Part shown: positions 2 through 23,389 of the stretch, in pieces
Layout of the letters: each line of letters opens with the position of its first letter
Position numbering within the stretch: position 1 is the stretch's first letter
From: a virus
Reading direction: 5' to 3' (one strand)
DNA length: 28,141 nucleotides
Virus record (IMG/VR): IMGVR_UViG_3300028653_000401
Location: 1-28,141 of that record
The notes under the pieces: generated by a model
Seen by the model: only the letters and a program-made list of their open reading frames with translations
The model's database searches: none
What the model was told of the DNA's origin: nothing
Translations under genes and position numbers: made by a program

Positions 2-3000
2 ATCGCCGACCTGAAGCCCGGTAAGACGGTCGGGGAGCCCACACCTTTGAACTCCAGAGGCTCTACCCAGCAGAACTATGATTATAGTCATATGTTAACC
101 CCGGAACACACAAAACAGGGCTACAAACTGATAGTGTCGCACATGGTACATCCTGGGCGGCAGGACGAGATTAAATCTCGGGTATATCACAGCACAGGGA
201 GTGGGTCATGGCAGCCAGAAACATCGTCACCGTTACGTAGTGTGGGACAGGTACACGCGAACATTGTAGAAGGCTCTATAGAACCCCATTCTTCTCTAGG
301 ACCAAGCTACCGTGGTCAGGGGTTGGGTAAAAAAATGTATGAGGCGTTATATACGCACGCTAAACACATAGCTGGAGTCGATCGCGTAACCGGGGGAGTC
401 CATTCAGAAGACGCTTCTAAGGTTCATCGAGCCTTGGCAGTTGCACACGGGCTGTGGTACTTCCCAGAAAAAAGGGAAGCATACGGTGAAGACCCGGACG
501 ACGAACATGTACAGCGTTATCCATATATGGACTACGACTACCAGATCAAAGGCGAGTTAGCGCCAGATCATGATGAGGAAGCCCTGCTGCTTTGTCCTCC
601 TGGCTGCCATGACCAGAAGATCGAGAAGGCTATCTCTGATATCTCTCCGGGTCCCCATGAAGAAGACCGACCGATCCCTGAAACAAACATCGTAAACCAA
701 GTCTATGACTACAACCACCTTTTGACCCCGTCCCAGCGCTCGATGGGGCTTACGCTGAAGGTGCATCAGAGAAAGGAGGGGCACAAACAATTCCCATCTA
801 TGGTCGAGGCAAGGCTGAGCAAATCCAACTACGGGGTGCAGCAGAATCTCGGTGGAGCCCATGGGCACATTAATCCGTCCACAAATGCCGAGTACGAATT
901 CCAAGATCAACTCCAAGGGGAGCCATACCTAGAGCCCCACTCCCAGTTAGAGAAGGAATATCGTGGCAAGGGGCTGGGCAAGGCGGCTTACAAGGCCCTC
1001 TATGCTCATGTCCATCATACTTTGGGGGTGAACCATGTCGTAGGAGGGGAACACTCAGCGGCGGCGGACAGGGTTCATCGATCGCTAGCCGGTGAAATGG
1101 GGCTAAACTACGTTTCAAAGAAAAGAAACCCCAAGAGCGGATTCGGTCTGCCTTTGGAGCAGTACCCGTATGATAGCTACCATTACCAACTCAAAGATGA
1201 ACTGGCCCCCGATCATGATGAAGAGGCTCTGTTGCTCTGTCCGCCCGGCTGTCACGACCAGAAGATCGAGAAAGCGATCTCTGACCTGAAGCCGGGCAAG
1301 TTTCAAGGGGAAACCACATTTCCTAACGGTGACGATGATTCAGGTGACCCGGTAACTCAGAAGAAGTTTGATTACGGCCATCTTTTGACGCCAGAACAAA
1401 AAGAGCAGGGCCTGTCGCTCCACGTTCATCATTCTTTCCAAAACAATGAAAACGGCAAAGAGCGGATAGTGGCGAGATTGACGAGACCAGGACGAGACCG
1501 CCCCAGATATGTGGGAGCCGTTACTGGATACGTGCGGCCGCCCAACAGTGTCAGAACCTTTAAGGGGTACGATCCTTTCGCCAAATTTACGAGGCTTGAA
1601 CCACACTCCGATCTAGACGAGCAATTTCGCGGACAGGGTTTAGGTAAAGCTATGTATGAGGCTCTTTACGCCCATGCAAAACATGTGGCGGGGATCGATC
1701 ACGTACAGGGCGGACCTCATTCTCCACAAGCAGAAGCGGTCCATATCGCTCTGTCGAAGAAACACGGCCTGGAACACGTTCCCTACGTCCTTCGTCCCGA
1801 GGACGGTTCTGACGATCCTGAAATCTCGGCCACACGTTACCCTTACGCCGGCTACCAGTACCAACTCAAAGGCGAGCTAGCCCCAGATCATGATGAGGAA
1901 ACTTTGTTGCTTTGCCCTCCTGGTTGTCACGACCAGAAGATCGAGAAAGCCATCGCCGACGTTCCTACCGGCAAACATATGAGCACCTACCAAGACGCCA
2001 ATGGCAACGACGTCCACCTACACGACTACTCCCATTTGCTCCCACAAGGTACGCCTTCGAACTTCAAGATGTTCGTCCGCCACAACCCTTCGAAAAACTA
2101 CCTCAGCACGTACATCAACGACGAATCGTCCAACAATCCGTTGGTCGGGAATGTGCAGGGGTATATCAAAAATAAGCACATCGAGCCCCATGCTGACCTC
2201 GATCTGGCCCACCACGGGAAAGGCTTCGGGAAGGCGATGTATCTAGCCACGTATTCCCACGCAAAGAACAAGCTGGGGGTCGAGGGGGTTGCCGGAGGGA
2301 TGCATTCTGCGCAGGCGAGTGCTGTACATCGAAGCTTGGCGGCAACACACGGCCTGGACTACAAAGTCGATCCTATCAATCCCGACGGTTCCGGAATCCA
2401 TGGCTCGAACATCTCACACATGCCTTATAAGTATGCCCTCAAGGCCGAGCTGGCTCCGAACGTTGACGAAGAAAAGCTTCTGCTTTGCCCGAAGGGCTGT
2501 CATGACCAAAAGGTCGAGAAGGCCATCAAGGACATTCCTGTGGGTAAGTATCAAAACGTGGACAGGACCCTCCATGGGACGGTGGTAGCCAGAAACTACA
2601 ACTACTCACACCTGCTGCCCGAGGAGATGCGCAAGACCCACAGCCTGGTTGTGCAGGAGCGCCGGCATGGAGTCGGAGGGAAGTACAATGTCCATCATAT
2701 CGTTGCCGAGCTGCACAACGATGCTCAACATATGACAGACGGAGATGTCCATTCGGACGTTCACTATCGCAACCGTAGCCTAGGCACAGGTGCGGAAAAA
2801 GAGAAATGGGAAGGGATGCTGACCCCCCATTCTTTTCTGAGCAGCAGTCTCCGGGGGCGAGGTCTGGGGAAGGCCATGTACGAGGCTCTTTACTCGCACG
2901 CCAAGAACAAGCTTGGGATCAAAGACGTTCAAGGAGGCAGCCATTCTGAAATGGCTCACAGGGTTCATCAGTCCTTGGCCGAGAAGCACGGGATGAGTTA

Positions 3001-3400
3001 CAACCCAGAGCCAGACGACTATGTTGATAACCGGGGCGTTAAATGGCATGGGCCCTACCAATACACCCTCAAGGGCGAATTCCCGGCCGAGAAGGAGGAC
3101 GACCTTTTGATTTGTGGCCCAGACTGCTCCCACCATGTAGCCAAAGAAGAAATCGAACCCAACGAGAAATTCCCGCCCGAGAAGGAGCTAAACAAGGAGT
3201 CCATGCCTCCGACCCACAAGGACCTGGAGCTGCCTGTGGGCTCGCTACACAATGGACACTTGAAGGTGCAACATGCGGACGGCACGGTGGGGTGGAAAGG
3301 TGTTACAGCCGGCCTCATTCAGGGACTTGAGCCCGGAGGCGCGGGTGGCGGAGGGGCCAACAGTCACGCTGTCTCAAGTAGGGAGCCGAATAGCCCGTAA
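2..3400 (+). CDS. Tandem GNAT-module giant protein (5' partial)
   Basis: The frame is open from the first full codon of the window, so the true start lies upstream. The first residues (IADLKPGK) match the end of the inter-module linker seen later (AISDLKPGK), so at least one more module precedes. Five modules of about 190-220 residues begin near nt 77, 704, 1367, 2021 and 2597. Each opens with a (Y/F/H)xY-x-H-(L/M)L motif and carries a GNAT acetyl-CoA-loop-like motif (YRGQGLGKKMYEALY, YRGKGLGKAAYKALY, FRGQGLGKAMYEALY, HHGKGFGKAMYLATY, LRGRGLGKAMYEALY). A GGxHSxxAxxVHxxLAxxxGL block follows, and each module closes with an ELAP..DEE.LLLCPPGCHDQKIEKAI-type linker. The C-terminus has HADGTVGWKGVTAG, a pattern I associate with phage virion or head-associated proteins, then a Gly-rich tail. 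GNAT enzymes transfer acyl groups from acyl-CoA to amines. Catalysis here is inferred only, and module 4 lacks the Arg of the loop. The gene is probably virion-associated. Confidence 0.8.
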   Translation: MADLKPGKTVGEPTPLNSRGSTQQNYDYSHMLTPEHTKQGYKLIVSHMVHPGRQDEIKSRVYHSTGSGSWQPETSSPLRSVGQVHANIVEGSIEPHSSLGPSYRGQGLGKKMYEALYTHAKHIAGVDRVTGGVHSEDASKVHRALAVAHGLWYFPEKREAYGEDPDDEHVQRYPYMDYDYQIKGELAPDHDEEALLLCPPGCHDQKIEKAISDISPGPHEEDRPIPETNIVNQVYDYNHLLTPSQRSMGLTLKVHQRKEGHKQFPSMVEARLSKSNYGVQQNLGGAHGHINPSTNAEYEFQDQLQGEPYLEPHSQLEKEYRGKGLGKAAYKALYAHVHHTLGVNHVVGGEHSAAADRVHRSLAGEMGLNYVSKKRNPKSGFGLPLEQYPYDSYHYQLKDELAPDHDEEALLLCPPGCHDQKIEKAISDLKPGKFQGETTFPNGDDDSGDPVTQKKFDYGHLLTPEQKEQGLSLHVHHSFQNNENGKERIVARLTRPGRDRPRYVGAVTGYVRPPNSVRTFKGYDPFAKFTRLEPHSDLDEQFRGQGLGKAMYEALYAHAKHVAGIDHVQGGPHSPQAEAVHIALSKKHGLEHVPYVLRPEDGSDDPEISATRYPYAGYQYQLKGELAPDHDEETLLLCPPGCHDQKIEKAIADVPTGKHMSTYQDANGNDVHLHDYSHLLPQGTPSNFKMFVRHNPSKNYLSTYINDESSNNPLVGNVQGYIKNKHIEPHADLDLAHHGKGFGKAMYLATYSHAKNKLGVEGVAGGMHSAQASAVHRSLAATHGLDYKVDPINPDGSGIHGSNISHMPYKYALKAELAPNVDEEKLLLCPKGCHDQKVEKAIKDIPVGKYQNVDRTLHGTVVARNYNYSHLLPEEMRKTHSLVVQERRHGVGGKYNVHHIVAELHNDAQHMTDGDVHSDVHYRNRSLGTGAEKEKWEGMLTPHSFLSSSLRGRGLGKAMYEALYSHAKNKLGIKDVQGGSHSEMAHRVHQSLAEKHGMSYNPEPDDYVDNRGVKWHGPYQYTLKGEFPAEKEDDLLICGPDCSHHVAKEEIEPNEKFPPEKELNKESMPPTHKDLELPVGSLHNGHLKVQHADGTVGWKGVTAGLIQGLEPGGAGGGGANSHAVSSREPNSP
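77..3229 (+). repeat. Five in-frame GNAT module repeats
   Basis: Module starts at about nt 77, 704, 1367, 2021 and 2597 give periods of roughly 627, 663, 654 and 576 nt. Linkers begin near nt 548, 1193, 1868, 2441 and 3071. The first three linkers are almost identical in protein and very similar in DNA (shared GATCATGATGA and GACCAGAAGATCGAGAA). The acetyltransferase-like bodies are far more diverged, and the last linker has drifted to CGPDCSHH. Confidence 0.8.
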
Positions 3401-4215: not shown

Positions 4216-4677
4216 TCACTCTTCGATCTCGAACTCCAGCGAGACGCCAGCCTCCTTGAGCATCTCAACTGAGGCAAGCATCGATGCTCGCCAGTCTTCA
4301 CGCCAAGTAAGGGCGCCCCCGCTGAAGGAGCACACCACGCGGGAGATTCCCGCTTGAATGCATGCCCTTGAGCAGTCACAGCACGGAGGGCCCGGCATAG
4401 TTGCCGCCATATAGAGCGCAGCTCCTTCTGTCGCAATGCCACGTCTAGCTGCCTGGTAGATCGCGTTCCTCTCAGCGTGCTCAAAGTAGTGATACTTCGC
4501 AGGCCTGGTATGTCGAGCGTCCGACTCCTTTACACCTCGCGGAAAACCGTTATGGGCTTCCAATATATGTCCATTTTCTGTAACTATGACAGAGCCAACG
4601 CGCGTGGAGCGGTCAACGGAACGCCCACTTGTCTCCATCGCAATCCGCAGGAATATCAAGTCTTCGGGAGATATCAT
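4216..4677 (-). CDS. Deoxycytidylate (dCMP) deaminase
   Basis: This 153-residue protein has the cytidine/dCMP deaminase zinc site: HAE at residues 67-69 and PCCDC (PCxxC) at 98-102. The stretch AHNGFPRGV near residue 41 and the YFEHAERNAIYQAARRG block are typical of dCMP deaminases. The enzyme converts dCMP to dUMP in the cytoplasm and feeds thymidylate synthesis. The ATG at 4677 overlaps the upstream stop as ATGA, so it is translated as the second gene of a two-gene leftward operon. A longer open frame continues upstream of this ATG, but it runs through the preceding gene in another frame and is composition-poor, so I reject it. The family is secure. dCMP rather than free cytidine as substrate is inferred from the NGFPRGV signature. 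Confidence 0.9.
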   Translation of the reverse strand: MISPEDLIFLRIAMETSGRSVDRSTRVGSVIVTENGHILEAHNGFPRGVKESDARHTRPAKYHYFEHAERNAIYQAARRGIATEGAALYMAATMPGPPCCDCSRACIQAGISRVVCSFSGGALTWREDWRASMLASVEMLKEAGVSLEFEIEE

Positions 4678-5084
4678 ACCTTCTTCTTGACCCAAGGCAG
4701 CCGCAGGTAAGTCGCCCCTCGCTTCTTGGAAGCCTTGACGAAGCCCGCCTGAAGGATGCCGACCTCCTCCATCACGTCGAGGAGCTTGACGTATTGGTCC
4801 CAGGTCATATCTACGTCGAAATAGAGGTGGTTGCACCCCTTCGTGCTGGAGGGGAACACGTGCATCGGGATATCAATGTCGAGTGCCGGCTTGTGCTTGT
4901 TCGAATCCTCGAACGACACCGAAGAAACCAGGTTCGCGGAACCCAGCTCCTGCACTGTGTCTGGGATCATTGCGAACGTGTACTTGGTGTCGCTGGTGTC
5001 GAGGTAATCGCTGTGGGCGATCTGTCGGCCTAGGAAATTTGGGGCCATGCTGTCTGGGATAAGTACGAATTTGTTGTTTGGCAT
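4674..5084 (-). CDS. Small phage protein of unknown function
   Basis: This 136-residue protein is the first gene of the leftward pair with the dCMP deaminase. The ATG at 5084 is chosen because it follows a -10-like TAAAGT by only 7 nt and because further upstream the frame is antisense to the next rightward gene. The C-terminal half contains LDIDIPMHVFPSSTKGCNHLYFDVDMTW and ends in ATYLRLPWVKKK. Similar small proteins with a D-x-D...VPSS..G..HLY pattern occur in actinobacterial phage genomes. The layout faintly recalls primase-polymerase active-site strands, but the protein is too short to be a whole primase. There is no signal peptide or membrane segment. The function is unknown. A role linked to nucleotides or replication is suggested only by its coupling to a deaminase. 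Confidence 0.75.
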   Translation of the reverse strand: MPNNKFVLIPDSMAPNFLGRQIAHSDYLDTSDTKYTFAMIPDTVQELGSANLVSSVSFEDSNKHKPALDIDIPMHVFPSSTKGCNHLYFDVDMTWDQYVKLLDVMEEVGILQAGFVKASKKRGATYLRLPWVKKKV

Positions 5085-12387: not shown

Positions 12388-14925
12388 ATGGCACAGCAAG
12401 ATGTTACCGACAATGGGGTACTGATTGTACCTGGCGCATATGGACAAGTTCAGGTCCAGAACAACCCGACCAACCTCGGCACCTCGGGGGTTATTCTCCT
12501 TGTTGGCGAGTCTGATTCGGGTCCTCGATTCAGCGACGAGTCCGACCTCTCTCTGAACGCTTTCGGCCCCGACCAGATCGTAGACTTCACCAAGAAGTAT
12601 GGCTCGGGCCCGCTCGTGGACGCCTTTCGTGGCGCCGCCTCGGCTGCCAACGATCCCAACATCTCGGGGAGCTTCAGCAGTATCATTGCCGTAAAGACCA
12701 ACACCCCGACCCGCGCGAAGGCTACTTTGCTCGCTCCGGGTGCGTCTCCTTATGCTTACCTACTGGACGCCAGCAATGGTCGCACGGGCAATTTTATCAG
12801 CTACACCACGACCATCTCTACTGCCGAATCTCTCCCGACCACGGGCCCCCTCATCATCTGCCCTCCGCAGGTGACTGCCAACCCGTTGTTCGGTGTTAAC
12901 GGTGGCGTGCCGGTAAGCGCGACTTTGACGGTTGGCATGCTGCCTTCGGCGATGAAGACGGCTATTGATGCTCTCGCCGGGGTAGCCTGTACGGGAGGCG
13001 TCAATCGCTCTATCTTGACCTCTGCGGCTGGTACCTTGGCCATCACCGTGGACTCCGGTAATCAAGTTCACTTTACTGTCGCTGGCAATACTTTCGTAAA
13101 CGTTCCTACGGTGGGCGATATCCTGTATCTGCCCTCCACCAGCCCGCTGACTGCCAACAACGAGGGAACGTACGTTGTTACGGCTGCCACCAGCACTCGG
13201 ATTGATGCTTATAAGCTGCTGGATGCTGCCGGCGCGGGAACTGTTCTTTCTGCTCCTACCACTCAGGCTGGACAGACGATTGCCGCCACTACGGACATCC
13301 AGGCGTTCTCGCCGCTCGTTATCACTCTGGAAGCCGGCGCGGCTATCCAGGGCGTGGGCAAGTCGCTGGAAATTTCGAACGGGAACACGTCTCCAGTCAC
13401 CTCGGTTTCAGGCCTCTGCTTCGTGTTCAGCGGAGCCTCTTCCACTCCTCCTGCTTCCACCAGCCCCATGATTTCTGTTGCTGGCGCGGGGAAAATTATC
13501 ACCTCTACGGCCGAGCAGGCTGTTGATATCAATGTCGCTCGACAGAGCGATAGCCTCTCCCAGGATGTCATCACGGGCGGAGACATTTATCTGACCCTGG
13601 GGTTCAACGGTGGATCTATGGTGCCGACTGCGACCGCCACGGTCTCCAATGGCTTCCTCACCACCTCGATTTCTTCGGGTGGCACGAACCTGAGCATTCG
13701 CCTGTCGGACTACGCCACTATCAATGACCTGGTGGCCTACATCAACACCCAGTCGCTGTATTTTGCGGCCCCTGGGTCCGTGTCTTTGGGTCAAGCCTCG
13801 CCGCTCGACCTCGACCAGGTAACTGCGGTGGGCATCGGAGCCACCTTCGTCAACACCGTTAGCGGTCCCGGCCGTATCAAGGCTGACGGCGTGAACTTCC
13901 AGCGTGACGTGAATGCGGGCAGCACTTTGGTGACCGTGGGCGCGATTTCCCCTGCAATCCAGCCCTCGGGCCTTCCGGACGTCAACAGCATGGCCTTCCT
14001 CGCTGGTGGCGCCAAGGGCCCTACGCTCGCCGCAGACGTGTCCGCAGCCTTTACGGCTCTGGAGGGCGTCCGAGGGAATTTCGTGGTGCCACTGTTCTCC
14101 AGGGACGCTACGCTGGACATTGCGGCCGGTACGACTGATTCGTCCTCGACCTACACCATTGACGCGGTTCATGCCCTGGCTCGCTCCCATGTGCTTAAGA
14201 TGAGCCAGCTCAAGCGCCGTCGCCCTCGGCAGGCCTTCCTGTCGTATCGGGGAACCTTCAAGGACGCCCAGACAAAGGCCGGCAATATGGCCTCCAGCCG
14301 ATGCGCGATGTTCTTCCAGGACATCAAGCAGGTAAACTCGGTCGGCACCATCGTCCAGTTCCAGCCTTGGATGGCGGCCGTCAAGGCGGCCGGGATGCAG
14401 GCTGCTGGGTTCTACCGGGCTATCGTGTCCAAGTTCATCGACATCTCGGGAGCCCTCCAGGCTGCCGGCGACTACAATGACCAGCTCGATTCGAGTGCCG
14501 AGGCAGCCCTGACCTACGGTCTTTGTCCTATCGTTCGGGATATCACGGGTGGGTACCGCTGGGTTTCGGACCAGACCACCTACACGAAGGACAACAATTT
14601 CGTGTACAACAGCATCCAGGCCATGTATGACGCTGACCAGGTAAACACCACCTGCCAGACTCGCATGGAGGGGATGTTTGTGGGTCAGTCCGTAGCGGAC
14701 ATCTCTGCCTCTATCGCTTTGACGGCGTTTGAGGGGATTCTGTCTGACTTGAAGCGGCTGAAACTCCTGGCGGCGTCTGATGACGCTCCCAAGGGCTACA
14801 GGAAGCCGGTCATCAAGATCAGTGGGCCCGCCATGGCTTGCTCGGTCGAAATCAAGCTGGCAGGCGCGATCTACTTCATCACTATCAATTTCTTGGCCAC
14901 CCCTGTCGTAAGTTCGGCGGGGTAA
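12388..14925 (+). CDS. Contractile tail sheath protein
   Basis: This 845-residue protein begins with a typical sheath N-terminus: VLIVPGAYGQVQVQNNPTN then TSGVILLVGESDSGP, followed by FGPDQIVDFTKKYGSGPLVDAFRGA. The central region is a large Gly/Thr/Ser-rich beta insertion (LTVGMLPSAMKTAIDAL, ITVDSGNQVHFTVAGN and so on), which makes the protein longer than simple phage sheaths. The C-terminal third returns to the conserved helical sheath fold (KMSQLKRRRPRQAFLSYRG, EGMFVGQSVADISASIALTAFEGILSDLKRLKLL) and ends with the strand SVEIKLAGAIYFITINFLA. It assembles as a helical sleeve around the tail tube and contracts on infection. A good AAGGAGA lies 8 nt before the ATG. It sits upstream of a small decoration-like gene, with the tube-like gene further on at 17313. 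Confidence 0.92.
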   Translation: MAQQDVTDNGVLIVPGAYGQVQVQNNPTNLGTSGVILLVGESDSGPRFSDESDLSLNAFGPDQIVDFTKKYGSGPLVDAFRGAASAANDPNISGSFSSIIAVKTNTPTRAKATLLAPGASPYAYLLDASNGRTGNFISYTTTISTAESLPTTGPLIICPPQVTANPLFGVNGGVPVSATLTVGMLPSAMKTAIDALAGVACTGGVNRSILTSAAGTLAITVDSGNQVHFTVAGNTFVNVPTVGDILYLPSTSPLTANNEGTYVVTAATSTRIDAYKLLDAAGAGTVLSAPTTQAGQTIAATTDIQAFSPLVITLEAGAAIQGVGKSLEISNGNTSPVTSVSGLCFVFSGASSTPPASTSPMISVAGAGKIITSTAEQAVDINVARQSDSLSQDVITGGDIYLTLGFNGGSMVPTATATVSNGFLTTSISSGGTNLSIRLSDYATINDLVAYINTQSLYFAAPGSVSLGQASPLDLDQVTAVGIGATFVNTVSGPGRIKADGVNFQRDVNAGSTLVTVGAISPAIQPSGLPDVNSMAFLAGGAKGPTLAADVSAAFTALEGVRGNFVVPLFSRDATLDIAAGTTDSSSTYTIDAVHALARSHVLKMSQLKRRRPRQAFLSYRGTFKDAQTKAGNMASSRCAMFFQDIKQVNSVGTIVQFQPWMAAVKAAGMQAAGFYRAIVSKFIDISGALQAAGDYNDQLDSSAEAALTYGLCPIVRDITGGYRWVSDQTTYTKDNNFVYNSIQAMYDADQVNTTCQTRMEGMFVGQSVADISASIALTAFEGILSDLKRLKLLAASDDAPKGYRKPVIKISGPAMACSVEIKLAGAIYFITINFLATPVVSSAG

Positions 14926-15316: not shown

Positions 15317-15350
15317 GACGCCCCTGGCTCACGCTGGGGGCGTCTCTTTT
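15317..15350. terminator. Hairpin terminator, possibly bidirectional
   Basis: A perfect 8-bp stem (GACGCCCC at 15317-15324, GGGGCGTC at 15337-15344) encloses a 12-nt loop and is followed by TCTTTT. It lies between the rightward structural run and the leftward deaminase gene, whose stop overlaps the T-rich tail. Confidence 0.8.
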
Positions 15351-15702
15351 AGAGTTCGAATTCTGCCCAAGTCTGGGCGTCGATTGAGTAATACACTCGT
15401 CGCACTCCAGCTTCCCGAATCAGCGCTTGGCACTCTTCGCAGGGTCTACTGTGGGCTATTTTGCCCTTCGTGACCCGCGCAACGTACAGGCTGGCCCCTG
15501 ATGCGGCCTCTCCAGCGAGCTTTAGTGCGTGCTCCTCGGCATGGGTCGTAGAGCGCGCCGTATTGAGCCTGTGAGGTTTGGCGCTATTCACGCCCAGTGC
15601 TAGGATATTGCCGCCGCGTTCAATCGCAGCCCCGTGCTGGTACCTGGGATAGGACGAGGTGGCTGCCAGTTTGACGGCCACGTTTTTGACCCAGGGCTTC
15701 AC
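15349..15702 (-). CDS. Second cytidine/deoxycytidylate deaminase-family protein
   Basis: With a GTG start at 15702 the protein is 117 residues. That start is preferred because AAAAAGGA lies 5 nt upstream and it follows the previous stop by 1 nt. An in-frame TTG at 15729 would overlap the previous gene by 26 nt. The zinc site is HAEE (residues 54-57) plus PCEEC (87-91), preceded by YQHGAAIERGGNILALGVNS, the deaminase beta-strand core. This is a compact single-domain member, clearly different from the dCMP deaminase at 4216. It lacks the NGFPRGV signature, so the substrate could be a nucleoside, nucleotide, free base or nucleic acid. It is the last gene of a five-gene leftward cassette and ends in the shared terminator. 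Confidence 0.88.
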   Translation of the reverse strand: MKPWVKNVAVKLAATSSYPRYQHGAAIERGGNILALGVNSAKPHRLNTARSTTHAEEHALKLAGEAASGASLYVARVTKGKIAHSRPCEECQALIREAGVRRVYYSIDAQTWAEFEL

Positions 15703-15703
15703 A

Positions 15704-15862
15704 CTATTCCTTTTTGTCTCGCTCGCCAAGGTATCGATAGTGTCGCTCCAGGGTTTCCCTCACAGTCCCAGGTTCCTCTGGCCCATTGATGAAGCGGTCG
15801 ACCATCACCCCCGCCAAAATCAGGGGCAGCCAGAAAAGGAACAGCGCCTGGTCTCTATTCAT
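15704..15862 (-). CDS. One-pass small membrane protein
   Basis: This 52-residue protein has one hydrophobic span at about residues 7-23 (LFLFWLPLILAGVMVDR) followed by a charged, soluble C-terminus (EEPGTVRETLERHYRYLGERDKKE). Its ATG lies inside the last codons of the HTH gene (8-nt overlap), and it stops 1 nt before the GTG of the deaminase, so it is almost certainly co-translated. No lipobox is seen. It could be an inner-membrane anchor, a holin-like or i-spanin-like protein, or an exclusion factor. The sequence does not decide among these. Confidence 0.6.
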   Translation of the reverse strand: MNRDQALFLFWLPLILAGVMVDRFINGPEEPGTVRETLERHYRYLGERDKKE

Positions 15863-17916: not shown

Positions 17917-19407
17917 ATGTCTCGGCCGATAACTTGGGAAGAATTCCAGCAGAGATGCTCGAAGTTCGCCCCAACTTTCGGTGGTAAAAAGTTCAATACG
18001 CAAGCGGTCGTCGGGCTAACCTGTCCGCTGTGCGGTTCCTATTTTGAAGCCAAATCCCGCGCCGTTTGGTATGGTGTGACTCAGTCTTGCGGCTGTCTAC
18101 AGAAACAGGTCGCCGCTCGGGCGAATCCCTCCAAACGCACCTGGGCCGACATCTCGGGAGTGCTTGCGGAGCGGCAGGTTGTCCTCGTGTCAGAGGTATC
18201 TCCAGAGGACCCCTTAACCAAGGTCACAAAACCCGGTGCATGGCGCTTTCGGTGTCGCTGTAGCAATGAATTTGGACAGACCTGCACCCTCAAGGCCGTT
18301 CTCTCGGGGAACACGACTTCGTGTGGGTGCGCGTTTGTAAGTGGAGCGATCGCGAGCGGCATCGCCAAACGCGGCAAATACACTGCCGCACAAAAGGCCA
18401 GTTCTGTAAATCGATACTCCCTTACCTCGGGTCAGGTCGGAGAGGTCCTTGCTTCCGTCGGTGGGAAACTGAAGGAGCCCATCCCGGACAAGGTCCATAC
18501 CCGCTGGCCCTGTGTTTGCCTTTGTAAGTGTGGGAGAGAATTCACAACGACCGCACAGTACATAGCCCTGCGCCGCACCCTCTATTGCGGCTGCACCAAA
18601 TCCGGCATAGAGCTTGAATTATTTGACTTCGTAAAAAACGTGGCCCCAGACACAGTCCACAACACCAGGAAAGTGATCGCACCTTACGAAATCGACGTTT
18701 TTGTTCCAGGTAAGCTAGCGATTGAATTGAATGGGATGTATTGGCACCAGGAGGGTAAAGAGAAGGTGACCATGCAGCAGAAACACGCCTTACTTGTTGC
18801 TGCCGGAATCCCCAGTTCCTTGTTCCTCTTCGAGGACGAATGGAGGGAGCGGCGAAGCGCGGTGGAGGGATTCATAAAGGGCATTCTGGGTGTCAAGCCC
18901 AAAATTGGAGCTAGGAAGTGTGAAATTCAATCCGGGGGCACAGATTTCATAGACAAAAACCATATTCAGGGGGCTGGCCCGGCGGGGACCACTCTACGGT
19001 TGGTCCACCAGGGAATCGCTGTGGCCGCTGCGACCTTTGTGGCCCATAAATCAGGAGAATGGAATCTGACGAGATACTGTGTTGGCGAAAACGCGGTGGT
19101 TGGGGGGTTGAGCAGGCTGATCGCCGCCTTCCGGAGGGCCCATCCCGAGCCTGTCTTTACGTTTTCCGATCTACGGTTTAGCAATGGCAGGCTTTATGAA
19201 GCTACGGGTTTTCAAAAGGTCGGAGCGGTTCCTCCCAGGTATTGGTACTTTAAGGGAACAAAGCGCTACCATCGGTTTGGTTTTCGGAAAGACGGCCTTA
19301 GAGCGAAGGGTTTGTTGAACAAGGGCGAGACGGAACGGGAGTGTACTGAACGCAATGGGTTTGCCCGGGTTTGGGATATCGGGAAGGTGAAGTGGAGACT
19401 CGTTTGA
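17917..19407 (+). CDS. Vsr-like homing endonuclease with three zinc ribbons
   Basis: This is a 496-residue protein in three parts. Residues ~33-62, 111-139 and 197-227 are three CxC/CxxC ... CGC zinc-ribbon units (C36/C39/C58/C60; C113/C115/C136/C138; C203/C205/C224/C226) of the type attached to phage homing nucleases. Residues ~231-325 look like the Vsr/PD-(D/E)xK nuclease core of EDxHD homing endonucleases: IELELFDFV, YEIDVFVPGKLAIELNGMYWH with D260, E270 and H277, then KHALLVAAGIPSSLFLFEDEW. Residues ~334-446 match a C-terminal domain often fused to these nucleases (FIDKNHIQG...LTRYCVGENAVVGGLSRLI...FSDLRFSNGRLYEATGF...PRYWYF). It would cut DNA at an intron-less or allelic target and spread by repair. 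It stands alone beside the tmRNA gene and has its own leaderless-type promoter. Confidence 0.85.
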   Translation: MSRPITWEEFQQRCSKFAPTFGGKKFNTQAVVGLTCPLCGSYFEAKSRAVWYGVTQSCGCLQKQVAARANPSKRTWADISGVLAERQVVLVSEVSPEDPLTKVTKPGAWRFRCRCSNEFGQTCTLKAVLSGNTTSCGCAFVSGAIASGIAKRGKYTAAQKASSVNRYSLTSGQVGEVLASVGGKLKEPIPDKVHTRWPCVCLCKCGREFTTTAQYIALRRTLYCGCTKSGIELELFDFVKNVAPDTVHNTRKVIAPYEIDVFVPGKLAIELNGMYWHQEGKEKVTMQQKHALLVAAGIPSSLFLFEDEWRERRSAVEGFIKGILGVKPKIGARKCEIQSGGTDFIDKNHIQGAGPAGTTLRLVHQGIAVAAATFVAHKSGEWNLTRYCVGENAVVGGLSRLIAAFRRAHPEPVFTFSDLRFSNGRLYEATGFQKVGAVPPRYWYFKGTKRYHRFGFRKDGLRAKGLLNKGETERECTERNGFARVWDIGKVKWRLV

Positions 19408-19413
19408 TTTTAT

Positions 19414-19441
19414 TTGACAACCCCTATGGGCGTGCTAATCT
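19414..19441 (+). promoter_or_regulatory. Promoter likely driving the tmRNA
   Basis: TTGACA at 19414-19419, a 16-nt spacer, then TAATCT at 19436-19441. It lies 6 nt after the endonuclease stop and about 165 nt before the mature tmRNA 5' end, so a long precursor leader that needs 5' processing is inferred. Confidence 0.6.
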
Positions 19442-19556: not shown

Positions 19557-19596
19557 GGTACCGGGCTGTTTTCTGGTGCTGGAGCAGCCCGGTACC
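19557..19596 (+). other. Perfect 12-bp inverted repeat just upstream of tmRNA
   Basis: GGTACCGGGCTG at 19557-19568 pairs perfectly with CAGCCCGGTACC at 19585-19596 around a 16-nt loop. It ends 10 nt before the tmRNA 5' end and has no T-run, so it is unlikely to be a terminator. It may be a processing hairpin or a protein-binding dyad. I see no gene in the rest of the leader (19442-19556), only a weak ATACC/GGTAT hairpin. Confidence 0.7.
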
Positions 19597-19606
19597 CAGT
19601 ATGTAC

Positions 19607-19955
19607 GGGGATGAACTGGTTTCGACTGAAGTAAGTGAAAAATGAGTTGCGTGTCGAGGTGTCCGAGGCCTCGTAAAAACGGACAAAGTAATACCTGCTA
19701 ACGAGCAGTCGTTCGCTCTCGCGGCCTAAAGAACCGCCGAGCCCATGAACTAGAGGGTGCCCGTACTCTAGGGATTGGTCATTCACAGGGATATGCCCCA
19801 AGAACCTGTCTGCCATGATTGGGGCGAGAATAGGCGGACAAAGCGTCCAGGCTCCTTCTCGTGGGGTCCCGGGTGACGAAAATAAAGCGCGAGAAACACA
19901 CGTAGTAGCAAGTTTGTAGCTCTTCAACACTGGGGTTCGACTCCCCACATCTCCA
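19607..19955 (+). ncRNA. ssrA: tmRNA (transfer-messenger RNA)
   Basis: The 5' end GGGGATGAACTGGTTTCGAC and the 3' end (T-arm TGGGG-TTCGACT-CCCCA, then CATCTCC plus discriminator A) form the tRNA-like acceptor: GGGGATG pairs with CATCTCC over 7 bp with one G-U. CCA is not encoded (CTT follows). The tag frame at 19697-19729 reads GCT AAC GAG CAG TCG TTC GCT CTC GCG GCC TAA, giving ANEQSFALAA. The ALAA end is the classical ClpXP/ClpAP degron. tmRNA enters stalled ribosomes with SmpB, tags the nascent chain and releases the ribosome. No SmpB gene is in this window, so host SmpB is presumably used. It lies between a homing endonuclease and small accessory genes in a phage-type setting, so it is phage-encoded. 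Confidence 0.95.
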
Positions 19956-20002
19956 CTTTCGATCCGGCACAAAACCGGGTCAAGATGCAGACACGCCGCA
20001 AA

Positions 20003-20022
20003 GGTCCTCCGGCCGGAGGACC
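20003..20022. other. Perfect 20-bp palindrome downstream of tmRNA
   Basis: GGTCCTCCGG is followed directly by its exact reverse complement. As RNA it would form a strong G+C-rich hairpin, but no T-run follows, so intrinsic termination is not supported. The rest of 19956-20098 shows no gene, only a weak CCGG/CCGG hairpin near 19965 and an AAGGG ribosome site before the next ATG. Confidence 0.7.
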
Positions 20023-20407: not shown

Positions 20408-20629
20408 ATGCCAATCACTCAAGAGTCTGCCAAGAAGATGTCGACCGATTCCCTCCTGTACGTCCGCAAGGACCTCTTGGAGGTCATCCACATCCAGGAG
20501 CGCTTGAACGCAGCAGGGTATCACACCCCGAAGCTGGGCTTCTATCACGACGAGCTGGCGGCCGTGGGCTTCGAGCTGGCCCGCCGTATGGGCCTCCACG
20601 ACTGCCACGCTTGCTGGAGGCCGCTGTGA
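20408..20629 (+). CDS. Small protein with C-terminal Cys/His pairs
   Basis: This is a 73-residue protein. It is helical in the first half (ITQESAKKMSTDSLLYVRKDLLEVIHIQERLNAAGYH) and ends with LARRMGLHDCHACWRPL, where HDCHAC could bind a metal. There is no Shine-Dalgarno sequence. The -10 box lies 6 nt before the ATG, so a leaderless mRNA is likely. Its TGA overlaps the GTG of the next gene (GTGA), indicating translational coupling. The family is not recognised. Confidence 0.65.
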   Translation: MPITQESAKKMSTDSLLYVRKDLLEVIHIQERLNAAGYHTPKLGFYHDELAAVGFELARRMGLHDCHACWRPL

Positions 20630-20907: not shown

Positions 20908-20913
20908 GTTACG

Positions 20914-20984
20914 GGACCCGTAGTTTAATGGTAGAACTCAAGCCGTTAAGGCCTGAGGTGCAGGGTCGAATCCTGCCGGGTCCC
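20914..20984 (+). tRNA. tRNA-like gene with atypical anticodon loop
   Basis: The acceptor GGACCCG pairs with CGGGTCC, with a further G(-1):C73 pair. The D-arm is GTTT-AATGGTA-GAAC. The anticodon stem CAAGC/GCCTG has one A-C mismatch and a 7-nt loop CGTTAAG. The T-arm is GCAGG-GTCGAAT-CCTGC. With standard numbering the anticodon is UUA (would read UAA stop codons), but position 33 is G instead of U. Sliding the reading gives GUU (Asn) or UAA (Leu) with broken pairing. CCA is not encoded. The cloverleaf is secure, the identity is not. Confidence 0.7.
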
Positions 20985-20991
20985 CGATGTT

Positions 20992-21065
20992 TGTGTTGTA
21001 GTTTCAACTGGCAAAACGACCGCCTTATTGGCGGATTGTTGCAGGTTCGACTCCTGCCAGCACAA
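20992..21065 (+). tRNA. tRNA, anticodon UAU by position (Ile?)
   Basis: The acceptor TGTGTTG pairs with CAGCACA, discriminator A. The D-arm is GTTT/AAAC, and the anticodon arm is (A)CCGC-CTTATTG-GCGG(A), with U33 and anticodon TAT at 34-36. The variable loop is 5 nt and the T-arm GCAGG-TTCGACT-CCTGC is canonical. Oddities are an A-A mismatch at 27-43, T at position 37, and a GTT/AAC extension outside the acceptor. CCA is not encoded. Confidence 0.8.
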
Positions 21066-21075
21066 ACACTCAATT

Positions 21076-21488: not shown

Positions 21489-21572
21489 TGGTGAGTGACC
21501 CGAGTGGCAAAGGGTCGTGACTGTAAATCCCGCGCTTCGGCTTCGCAGGTTCGAGTCCTGCCTCACCAACCA
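21489..21572 (+). tRNA. tRNA-Tyr (GTA)
   Basis: The acceptor TGGTGAG pairs with CTCACCA, discriminator A, and CCA is encoded. The anticodon loop CTGTAAA gives GTA. The anticodon stem CGTGA/TCCCG has one mismatch. A long class II variable arm (CGCTTCGGCTTCG) and a canonical T-arm GCAGG-TTCGAGT-CCTGC confirm tRNA-Tyr. It is the only tRNA here with an encoded CCA and a fully ordinary anticodon loop. Confidence 0.93.
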
Positions 21573-22297: not shown

Positions 22298-23389
22298 ATG
22301 TCTGAGTTTGTCGTACCGTGCGTCCGAATCGGCGCCATCACCAAGCATCCTAACGCTGACACCCTTTCGATTACCGAGGTCGAAGGCCAGCCCGTCGTGT
22401 TTCGTACTGGCGACTTCAAGGAGGGTGACCTGGCGATCTACATCCCGGTCGAGGCTGTCATCCCCGAGAACGAGCCCTGGGTGAAGAACCACCTCAGCTT
22501 CCTGGAATTCAAGAGCGGAAAGCACCGGGTCAAGGCCAAGAAGCTTCGCGGCGTGTTCTCGATGGGGATTCTGATCGGGCCCCGGGTGGAGACCGGTGAC
22601 AGCGTGAGGGGTTCCTTCCTCCAGGCCCTGGAGGGGTCTGTCAGGCTGGCTGAGGCTCTCAAAATCACCAAGTACGAAGAGCCTGAGGAATTCGTCCCCG
22701 AGCCAAAGGAGCCACCGACGTTTTGGGAGCGCTTGGCTTGGCGTGTCCGCCGTTTCCTGGGTCTCCCCCAGAAGCGCCGCAAGGCCCAGCCCCGACCCTT
22801 CCCCGTCTATGACCTCGACAATTTTCGGAAGTACCATGGGCTGTTCGAGCCTGGAGAGCTGGTGGAGGTTACCGAAAAAATCCACGGGACCAACTTTGTA
22901 TTCGGGCGGGTCGGCAAGAAGGGCGAGCTGGTGGTATCTTCACACAAGGTCATTCGCAAGGAAGACAACTCTGTTTACTGGCGAGCCGTGCGCGAGCTGA
23001 AGCTCGATAAGGCTCTCCCCCTGGGCCTCGCCTTCTACGCCGAAATCTATGGCAATGGTGTCCAGGACCTTGCGTACGATACGCGGCTTGGGATGAAGGT
23101 GTTCGACGTTTATGACACCGTCAACAAGTGCTGGTTGAGCCTGCGCGACCGGAACGAGGCGGTTTGGGAGGCTGGGCTTTCATTGGTCCCCGAAATGTAC
23201 CTGGGCTCCTTCAACAAGGCCTTTATCGAGTCACTGCAGAATGGCAAGACGAATCTGGGTCGCGGGAGTCACATTCGGGAGGGGGTTGTAGTCCGTAGGG
23301 TACATGAAACCCTTGACAAGCCGCGTTTGGTGCTTAAGCTAGTAGGGTCGGACTATCTCCTCCGTAAGGGAGGAACGGAGCGACACTAG
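22298..23389 (+). CDS. RNA ligase, Rnl5/DRB0094 type
   Basis: This 363-residue protein has an N-terminal OB-like domain (VPCVRIGAITKHPNADTLSITEVEG ... GDLAIYIPVEAVIP, residues 1-60) and a nucleotidyltransferase core. Motif I is KIHGTN at 194-199, with K194 as the expected adenylated lysine. The motif III region is AFYAEIYG at 245-252, motif IV is REGVVVRR at 327-334 and motif V is LVLKLVG at 344-350. This order and the N-terminal domain match the RNA ligases typified by the Deinococcus DRB0094 protein, which seal 3'-OH/5'-phosphate nicks in RNA-containing duplexes using ATP. A basic insertion (RVRRFLGLPQKRRK) lies before the core. GGAAGG precedes the ATG. Its position after the tmRNA and tRNA genes suggests a repair role for structured RNAs. 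Confidence 0.9.
   Translation: MSEFVVPCVRIGAITKHPNADTLSITEVEGQPVVFRTGDFKEGDLAIYIPVEAVIPENEPWVKNHLSFLEFKSGKHRVKAKKLRGVFSMGILIGPRVETGDSVRGSFLQALEGSVRLAEALKITKYEEPEEFVPEPKEPPTFWERLAWRVRRFLGLPQKRRKAQPRPFPVYDLDNFRKYHGLFEPGELVEVTEKIHGTNFVFGRVGKKGELVVSSHKVIRKEDNSVYWRAVRELKLDKALPLGLAFYAEIYGNGVQDLAYDTRLGMKVFDVYDTVNKCWLSLRDRNEAVWEAGLSLVPEMYLGSFNKAFIESLQNGKTNLGRGSHIREGVVVRRVHETLDKPRLVLKLVGSDYLLRKGGTERH

Follow-up and report, generated by a model that had tools for sequence, protein, structure and literature searches.

A one-piece tmRNA gene in a phage related to Myxococcus phage Mx1 and the diverse tags of its relatives

Introduction

Phages are known to carry tmRNA genes; a survey of 18,146 phage genomes recorded one in 402 of them (PMC9004378). 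Examples are mycobacteriophages Bxz1, Cali, Catera, and Wildcat and Bacillus phage G (PMC4131195), and both tmRNA and SmpB occur in huge phages (PMC7162821). The marine phage Melnitz has a two-piece tmRNA which is linked to a riboswitch and is patchy in its phage group (PMC9004378).

The DNA analyzed here (the window, 28,141 nucleotides) is an IMG/VR virus record and belongs, as an incomplete piece, to a soil phage which has a contractile tail and is a relative of Myxococcus phage Mx1. It was found to have a one-piece tmRNA gene, which Myxococcus-type phages related to it possess as a long-established phage gene. As in Bxz1, Cali, Catera, Wildcat, and phage G, the tmRNA lies in a phage genome, but the lineage is a different one (Mx1-like, about 165-182 kb) and its tags are diverse within one family. 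Like that of Melnitz, the tmRNA is phage-encoded and patchy in its group, whereas it is made of one piece. It shares with the bacterial one-piece tmRNA (ssrA, RF00023) the full-length model match, the G3-U70 pair, the PK elements, and the ALAA end of the tag. It differs from ssrA in being phage-borne, in lacking an encoded CCA, and in its identity of at most about 57-59% to tmRNAs of the sampled host-candidate phylum. The Mx1 tmRNA belongs to the same family and likewise follows the tail sheath at a distance of 4.5-4.7 kb with an HNH endonuclease adjacent, while its tag (VNTNVFGSQMMAAA) starts from a Val resume codon and the RNA is 50% identical to that of the window. What was not expected is a lineage at the level of a phage family in which the charging elements are constant and the tags diverge strongly.

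Results

The tmRNA gene of the window

ARAGORN called a tmRNA with the tag ANEQSFALAA* at 19607-19956 (+). The RF00023 match found by cmscan covers the full model (1-374) and reaches 144 bits, where the gathering score is 47 (E = 8.2e-57); chance is ruled out as the source of the score. The two programs agree, and the span of the complete tmRNA is exactly that of the original prediction, which had been made from the letters of the sequence. The gene has the following parts.

19607..19955, plus strand: one-piece tmRNA gene, mature part, with the discriminator A73 at 19955 and CCA not encoded (ARAGORN, cmscan RF00023, G3-U70)
19655..19685, plus strand: PK1, both stems; S1 CGAGG/CCUCG at 19655-19659/19669-19673, S2 UGUCCG/CGGACA at 19660-19665/19680-19685 (sequence reading)
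19697..19729, plus strand: tag frame GCU AAC GAG CAG UCG UUC GCU CUC GCG GCC UAA, ANEQSFALAA* (ARAGORN, 91-123 of the gene, and direct reading)
19750..19771, plus strand: PK2 stem 1, CUAGAG/CUCUAG (sequence reading)
19795..19839, plus strand: PK3, both stems; S1 GCCCCAA/UUGGGGC, S2 GUCUGCC/GGCGGAC with one G-U (sequence reading)
19856..19895, plus strand: PK4 stem 2, UUCUCG/CGAGAA at 19856-19861/19890-19895 (sequence reading)

The tRNA-like domain has a T arm and an acceptor stem (GGGGATG/CATCTCC) which contains G3·U70, the identity pair for alanyl-tRNA synthetase. As had been noticed, the gene has no CCA; A73 is followed by CTT, and therefore CCA must be added post-transcriptionally. The predicted tag was obtained in the same frame by ARAGORN and by direct reading, with GCU as the resume codon and UAA as the internal stop. 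The covariance-model search that had been proposed as a check is the RF00023 match given above, and elements of all four pseudoknots are legible in the sequence: PK1 and PK3 with both stems, PK2 with stem 1, and PK4 with stem 2. The minimum free energy fold of the entire RNA gave a z of -0.6, a value which is uninformative for a pseudoknotted RNA such as this.

Related phages

That the gene is phage-encoded is supported both by its surroundings (a tail sheath, a PHROG homing endonuclease, and an RNA ligase) and by its presence in eight related phages.

12388..14925, plus strand: tail sheath, the marker gene for comparisons within the Mx1-like family (phrog_279; 45% over 94% to the Mx1 tail sheath)
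17917..19407, plus strand: HNH/homing endonuclease, directly 5′ of the tmRNA region (phrog_3339)
22298..23389, plus strand: RNA ligase, PF09414 and PHA02142 OB-fold (domain matches, including the Naegleria RNA ligase N-terminal domain)

The homologous tail sheath places the window in the Mx1-like family, and 243 related stretches with a sheath alignment were found in viral (environmental) contigs. A second contig of the same virus is 99.99-100% identical along the shared stretch and gives no independent variation; a tail-tube search found only this same virus in the second contig. A DNA search of phages with the tmRNA region of the window gave only matches of about 30 nt near the 3′ end.

The eight further members with a tmRNA are Mx1 and the IMG/VR records G002, G005, G200, G204, G207, G213, and G226, and in most of them the gene lies on the strand of the tail sheath, 3′ to it. 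The Mx1 tmRNA (OR576727.2, 46646-47022) is missing from the annotation of that record. In the same record (L009), a short 'Hef-like endonuclease' CDS is drawn across the tmRNA, and several tRNAs found by ARAGORN are likewise absent. The gene was found in five of the 13 family records which reach 100 kb or more; the tmRNA is therefore dispensable or replaceable in the Mx1-like family. The original statement that such genes are uncommon is consistent, for phages at large, with the survey cited above (PMC9004378), but five of the nine near-complete family records examined, of more than 160 kb each, have one.

G3·U70 is kept in all nine family tmRNAs although their mutual identity is only 42-71%, and therefore their function has been selected. 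The tag stop is UAA in all nine, and CCA is not encoded in eight. No SmpB (PF01668) was found in the searched family records, which include the whole Mx1 genome. Thus, SmpB of the host would be needed, and the family tmRNAs would presumably work with it.

Tags of the phage family

The tags of the nine phages are given below. Those other than that of the window, with their resume codons and frames, were read from alignments.

Window: ANEQSFALAA
G226: AEKPQIRMAA
G200: DNVEMAMAA
Mx1: VNTNVFGSQMMAAA
G005: ANDNSYAAPLSAAA
G002: AKNEEFDVPFDLIVANGFGVGHGVRALA
G207: AKNDEFDVPFDLVVAAGFGGGPSARAWN
G204: ANDEFDVPFDLIEANGFGGYGARALAA
G213: AKTKMVMLEDEDFGGITFDLTPASAFGYGPGVRAQA

For G002, ARAGORN probably misplaced the tag start (VANGFG...); the frame begins upstream of it. 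Tag length in the family is 9-36 residues; four of the nine tags have 27-36 residues, and three lack a terminal AA. Endings among some relatives are MAAA, SAAA, RALA, AQA, and AWN. The 27-36-residue tags (L365, L366, L367, and L012) have a common core, which reads EFDVPFDL...GFG...RA in three of them. The differences among the three EFDVPFDL tags cluster at third codon positions, which fits translation of the long tags. The motif N[DE]EFDVPFDL was scanned in viral contigs and found in only three, all already known.

Tags in the tmRNA database most often have 10 residues (PMC11915505). In the sampled host phylum, nearly all tags have 9-13 residues; 131 of the 137 scored end in AA and 104 in LAA. 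The tag of the window, with the C-terminal LAA of a ClpXP tag in its ALAA end, is of the ordinary host type.

It had been suggested that the phage tmRNA may redirect tagging. If this were its main role, rescued proteins, or host proteins which have been tagged, would meet another fate, such as stability or another protease. Some relatives fit the idea: the family tags vary between 9 and 36 residues and include the Mx1 tag and the long AKNEEFDVPFDLIVANGFGVGHGVRALA and its relatives, ends such as AWN, AQA, and ALA occur, nearly all scored tags of the host phylum end in AA, and the third-position excess of the long tags is as expected for translated sequences. However, the window has a host-type tag whose LAA end is that of most scored tags of the host-candidate phylum, and the tags of that phylum are variable too, some ending in AAA or AVA. 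I consider redirected tagging an unlikely main role, and the suggestion is not supported for the tag of the window.

A regulatory role is less probable still. The tRNA-like domain might act as a decoy which competes for SmpB or AlaRS and inhibits trans-translation of the host, and a precedent is the tag-less, DS6A-like RNA with the TLD only, which inhibits tmRNA (PMC4131195, PMC11915505). However, a decoy would need neither the whole tag frame and the pseudoknots, which are kept here, nor the long tags of the relatives with their third-position excess.

A comparison of the tag with host tmRNAs had also been proposed for inferring the host. A pattern scan of genome contigs gave no ANEQSFALAA among the matches listed; the closest among them, ANDNSFALAA, occurred in three MAGs (Myxococcales, Deltaproteobacteria, and Proteobacteria), and in the phylum sample ANDNAFALAA is a close tag. 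With tags varying so widely inside the phage family, the host was not obtained in this way. A Myxococcota host may be supposed for the window phage from Mx1 only.

Origin of the phage tmRNA

The host-candidate sample consists of 142 tmRNAs from the phylum of the MAG titled Myxococcales. A divergent group in this phylum (L284-L289) scores about 95-98 bits and has odd ARAGORN tags (ANTSPRPSRLS and similar), probably from misread frames. In the tmRNA tree, eight of the nine phage sequences fall into a single clade (SH-aLRT 95). The likelihood was better than that of the free tree when all nine were constrained to group together (p-AU 0.917); a single origin in phages is thus not rejected, although the phage branches are long and long-branch attraction may contribute. 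The four long-tag phages form a clade in both trees, with support of 97 for the tmRNA and 100/99 for the sheath, which indicates vertical inheritance.

Temperate phages frequently integrate in ssrA (PMC12656738), and the gene might accordingly be a recently captured host copy or the remnant of an integration site. However, the closest of the 142 sampled tmRNAs is about 57% identical to it (59% when first aligned), the gene is whole and lies internally, none of the window proteins searched was an integrase, and the gene has similar positions in relatives. Recent capture from a host of the sampled phylum is unlikely on these grounds, for the eight related tmRNAs as well; I rejected recent capture and an att-site remnant on identity and context, and regarded the whole explanation as very improbable.

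Expression signals and neighboring genes

The original prediction gave the tmRNA a promoter of its own. The following elements flank the gene.

19414..19441, plus strand: promoter-like TTGACA-N16-TAATCT with TG ahead of its second hexamer, 166 nt 5′ of the tmRNA (pattern search)
19557..19596, plus strand: perfect 12-bp hairpin GGTACCGGGCTG/CAGCCCGGTACC, its end 10 nt ahead of the tmRNA 5′ end
20003..20022, plus strand: perfect 20-nt palindrome beginning 47 nt past the tmRNA, with no other in the window

The pattern TTGACAN{15,18}TANNNT occurs at four sites in the window, all on the plus strand (beginning at 19414, 20374, 21989, and 23313), against 0.30 expected, and none of 100 shuffles reached four. 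The latter three lie 7 to 64 nt ahead of the ORF starts at 20408, 22052, and 23404. Together, the four sites are likely to be the promoters of the short genes found here. An own promoter is plausible from the site at 19414-19441, although a stricter sigma-70 scan gave no site in the tmRNA region. The hairpin is the only perfect 12-bp hairpin in the window (none in 10 random sequences). Neither it nor the palindrome has a U run, and most of the relatives compared lack such flanking hairpins. The two elements may be processing marks or transcript ends.

Downstream of the tmRNA are tRNA genes.

20914..21067, plus strand: two tRNA-like genes, 20914-20985 (anticodon called UUA) and 20991-21067, tRNA-Ile UAU (ARAGORN, cmscan)
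21489..21572, plus strand: tRNA-Tyr (GUA) (ARAGORN, cmscan)

The anticodon UUA of the first (20913-20985) would read the UAA stop, but its loop is CGUUAAG with G33 in place of U33, and the anticodon stem has an A-C mismatch. G at 20913 could form a G-1:C73 pair in the manner of tRNA-His, and a phage tRNA-Leu(UAA) in L341 aligns to it most closely. Since TAA ends most window genes, this tRNA is possibly decayed or miscalled; with G33 in the loop as well, ochre suppression by such a 'tRNA-Stop' is unlikely. The RNA ligase is probably an RNA-repair gene belonging to the translation cluster of the tmRNA.

Two further observations concern other genes. A long ORF at 2-3400, beside structural genes, has about five repeated GNAT acetyltransferase-like units, most with a terminal motif like ELAPDHDEEALLLCPPGCHDQKIEKAI. 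Two separate cytidine/deoxycytidylate deaminase-like genes (PF00383) lie between virion genes, at 4216-4836 (-) and 15349-15729 (-).

The patchy presence of the tmRNA in the family, the adjoining homing endonuclease, and the abnormal neighboring tRNA might suggest a decaying passenger of a mobile tRNA/homing-endonuclease region, currently without function; the identity elements, the tag frame, and the stems are intact despite deep divergence, which makes this the least probable of the explanations.

Discussion

The gene is probably a functional, phage-owned tmRNA which adds ribosome-rescue capacity in infection. Replacing or supplementing the host tmRNA is a plausible and the leading explanation, and since the ALAA end is ordinary, supplementary trans-translation is the simplest reading of the window tmRNA.

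Completion, charging, and use of tmRNA by host enzymes and removal of the tagged products by host proteases are established tmRNA biology. The phage tmRNA would be transcribed from its own promoter or as part of the operon around it, its two ends would be trimmed, and CCA would be supplied by the CCA-adding enzyme of the host. Host AlaRS would charge it with alanine through G3-U70. On the assumption that host SmpB and ClpXP are compatible with it, the tmRNA would bind SmpB and enter ribosomes stalled on broken mRNAs, ANEQSFALAA would be appended, and the ALAA end should route the product to ClpXP-type proteases. The RNA ligase and the tRNAs nearby suggest a shared role in sustaining translation when RNAs are cut. 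Together with the tmRNA, they may constitute a translation-maintenance cluster, which would benefit the phage when host RNA is being degraded or RNases are set free.

Judging from the tags of some relatives, which lack the standard degron, degradation does not seem to be the common purpose across the family. A bolder and rather unlikely proposal is that an ancient tmRNA lineage belongs to the Mx1-like phages and that its tag was freed from the host degron and repurposed. The conserved 27-36-residue tags of the EFDVPFDL...GFG...RA type would then act otherwise than by hand-over to ClpXP, and the window would have kept or regained a host-type tag.

The Mx1-like family is a natural series within a single phage lineage: its charging elements are conserved, and its tags extend from one with a standard degron to one of 36 residues that has none. 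An isolated member, Myxococcus phage Mx1, is available. A comparison of the fates of tags across the family RNAs would separate the view that rescue matters from the view that the tag matters.
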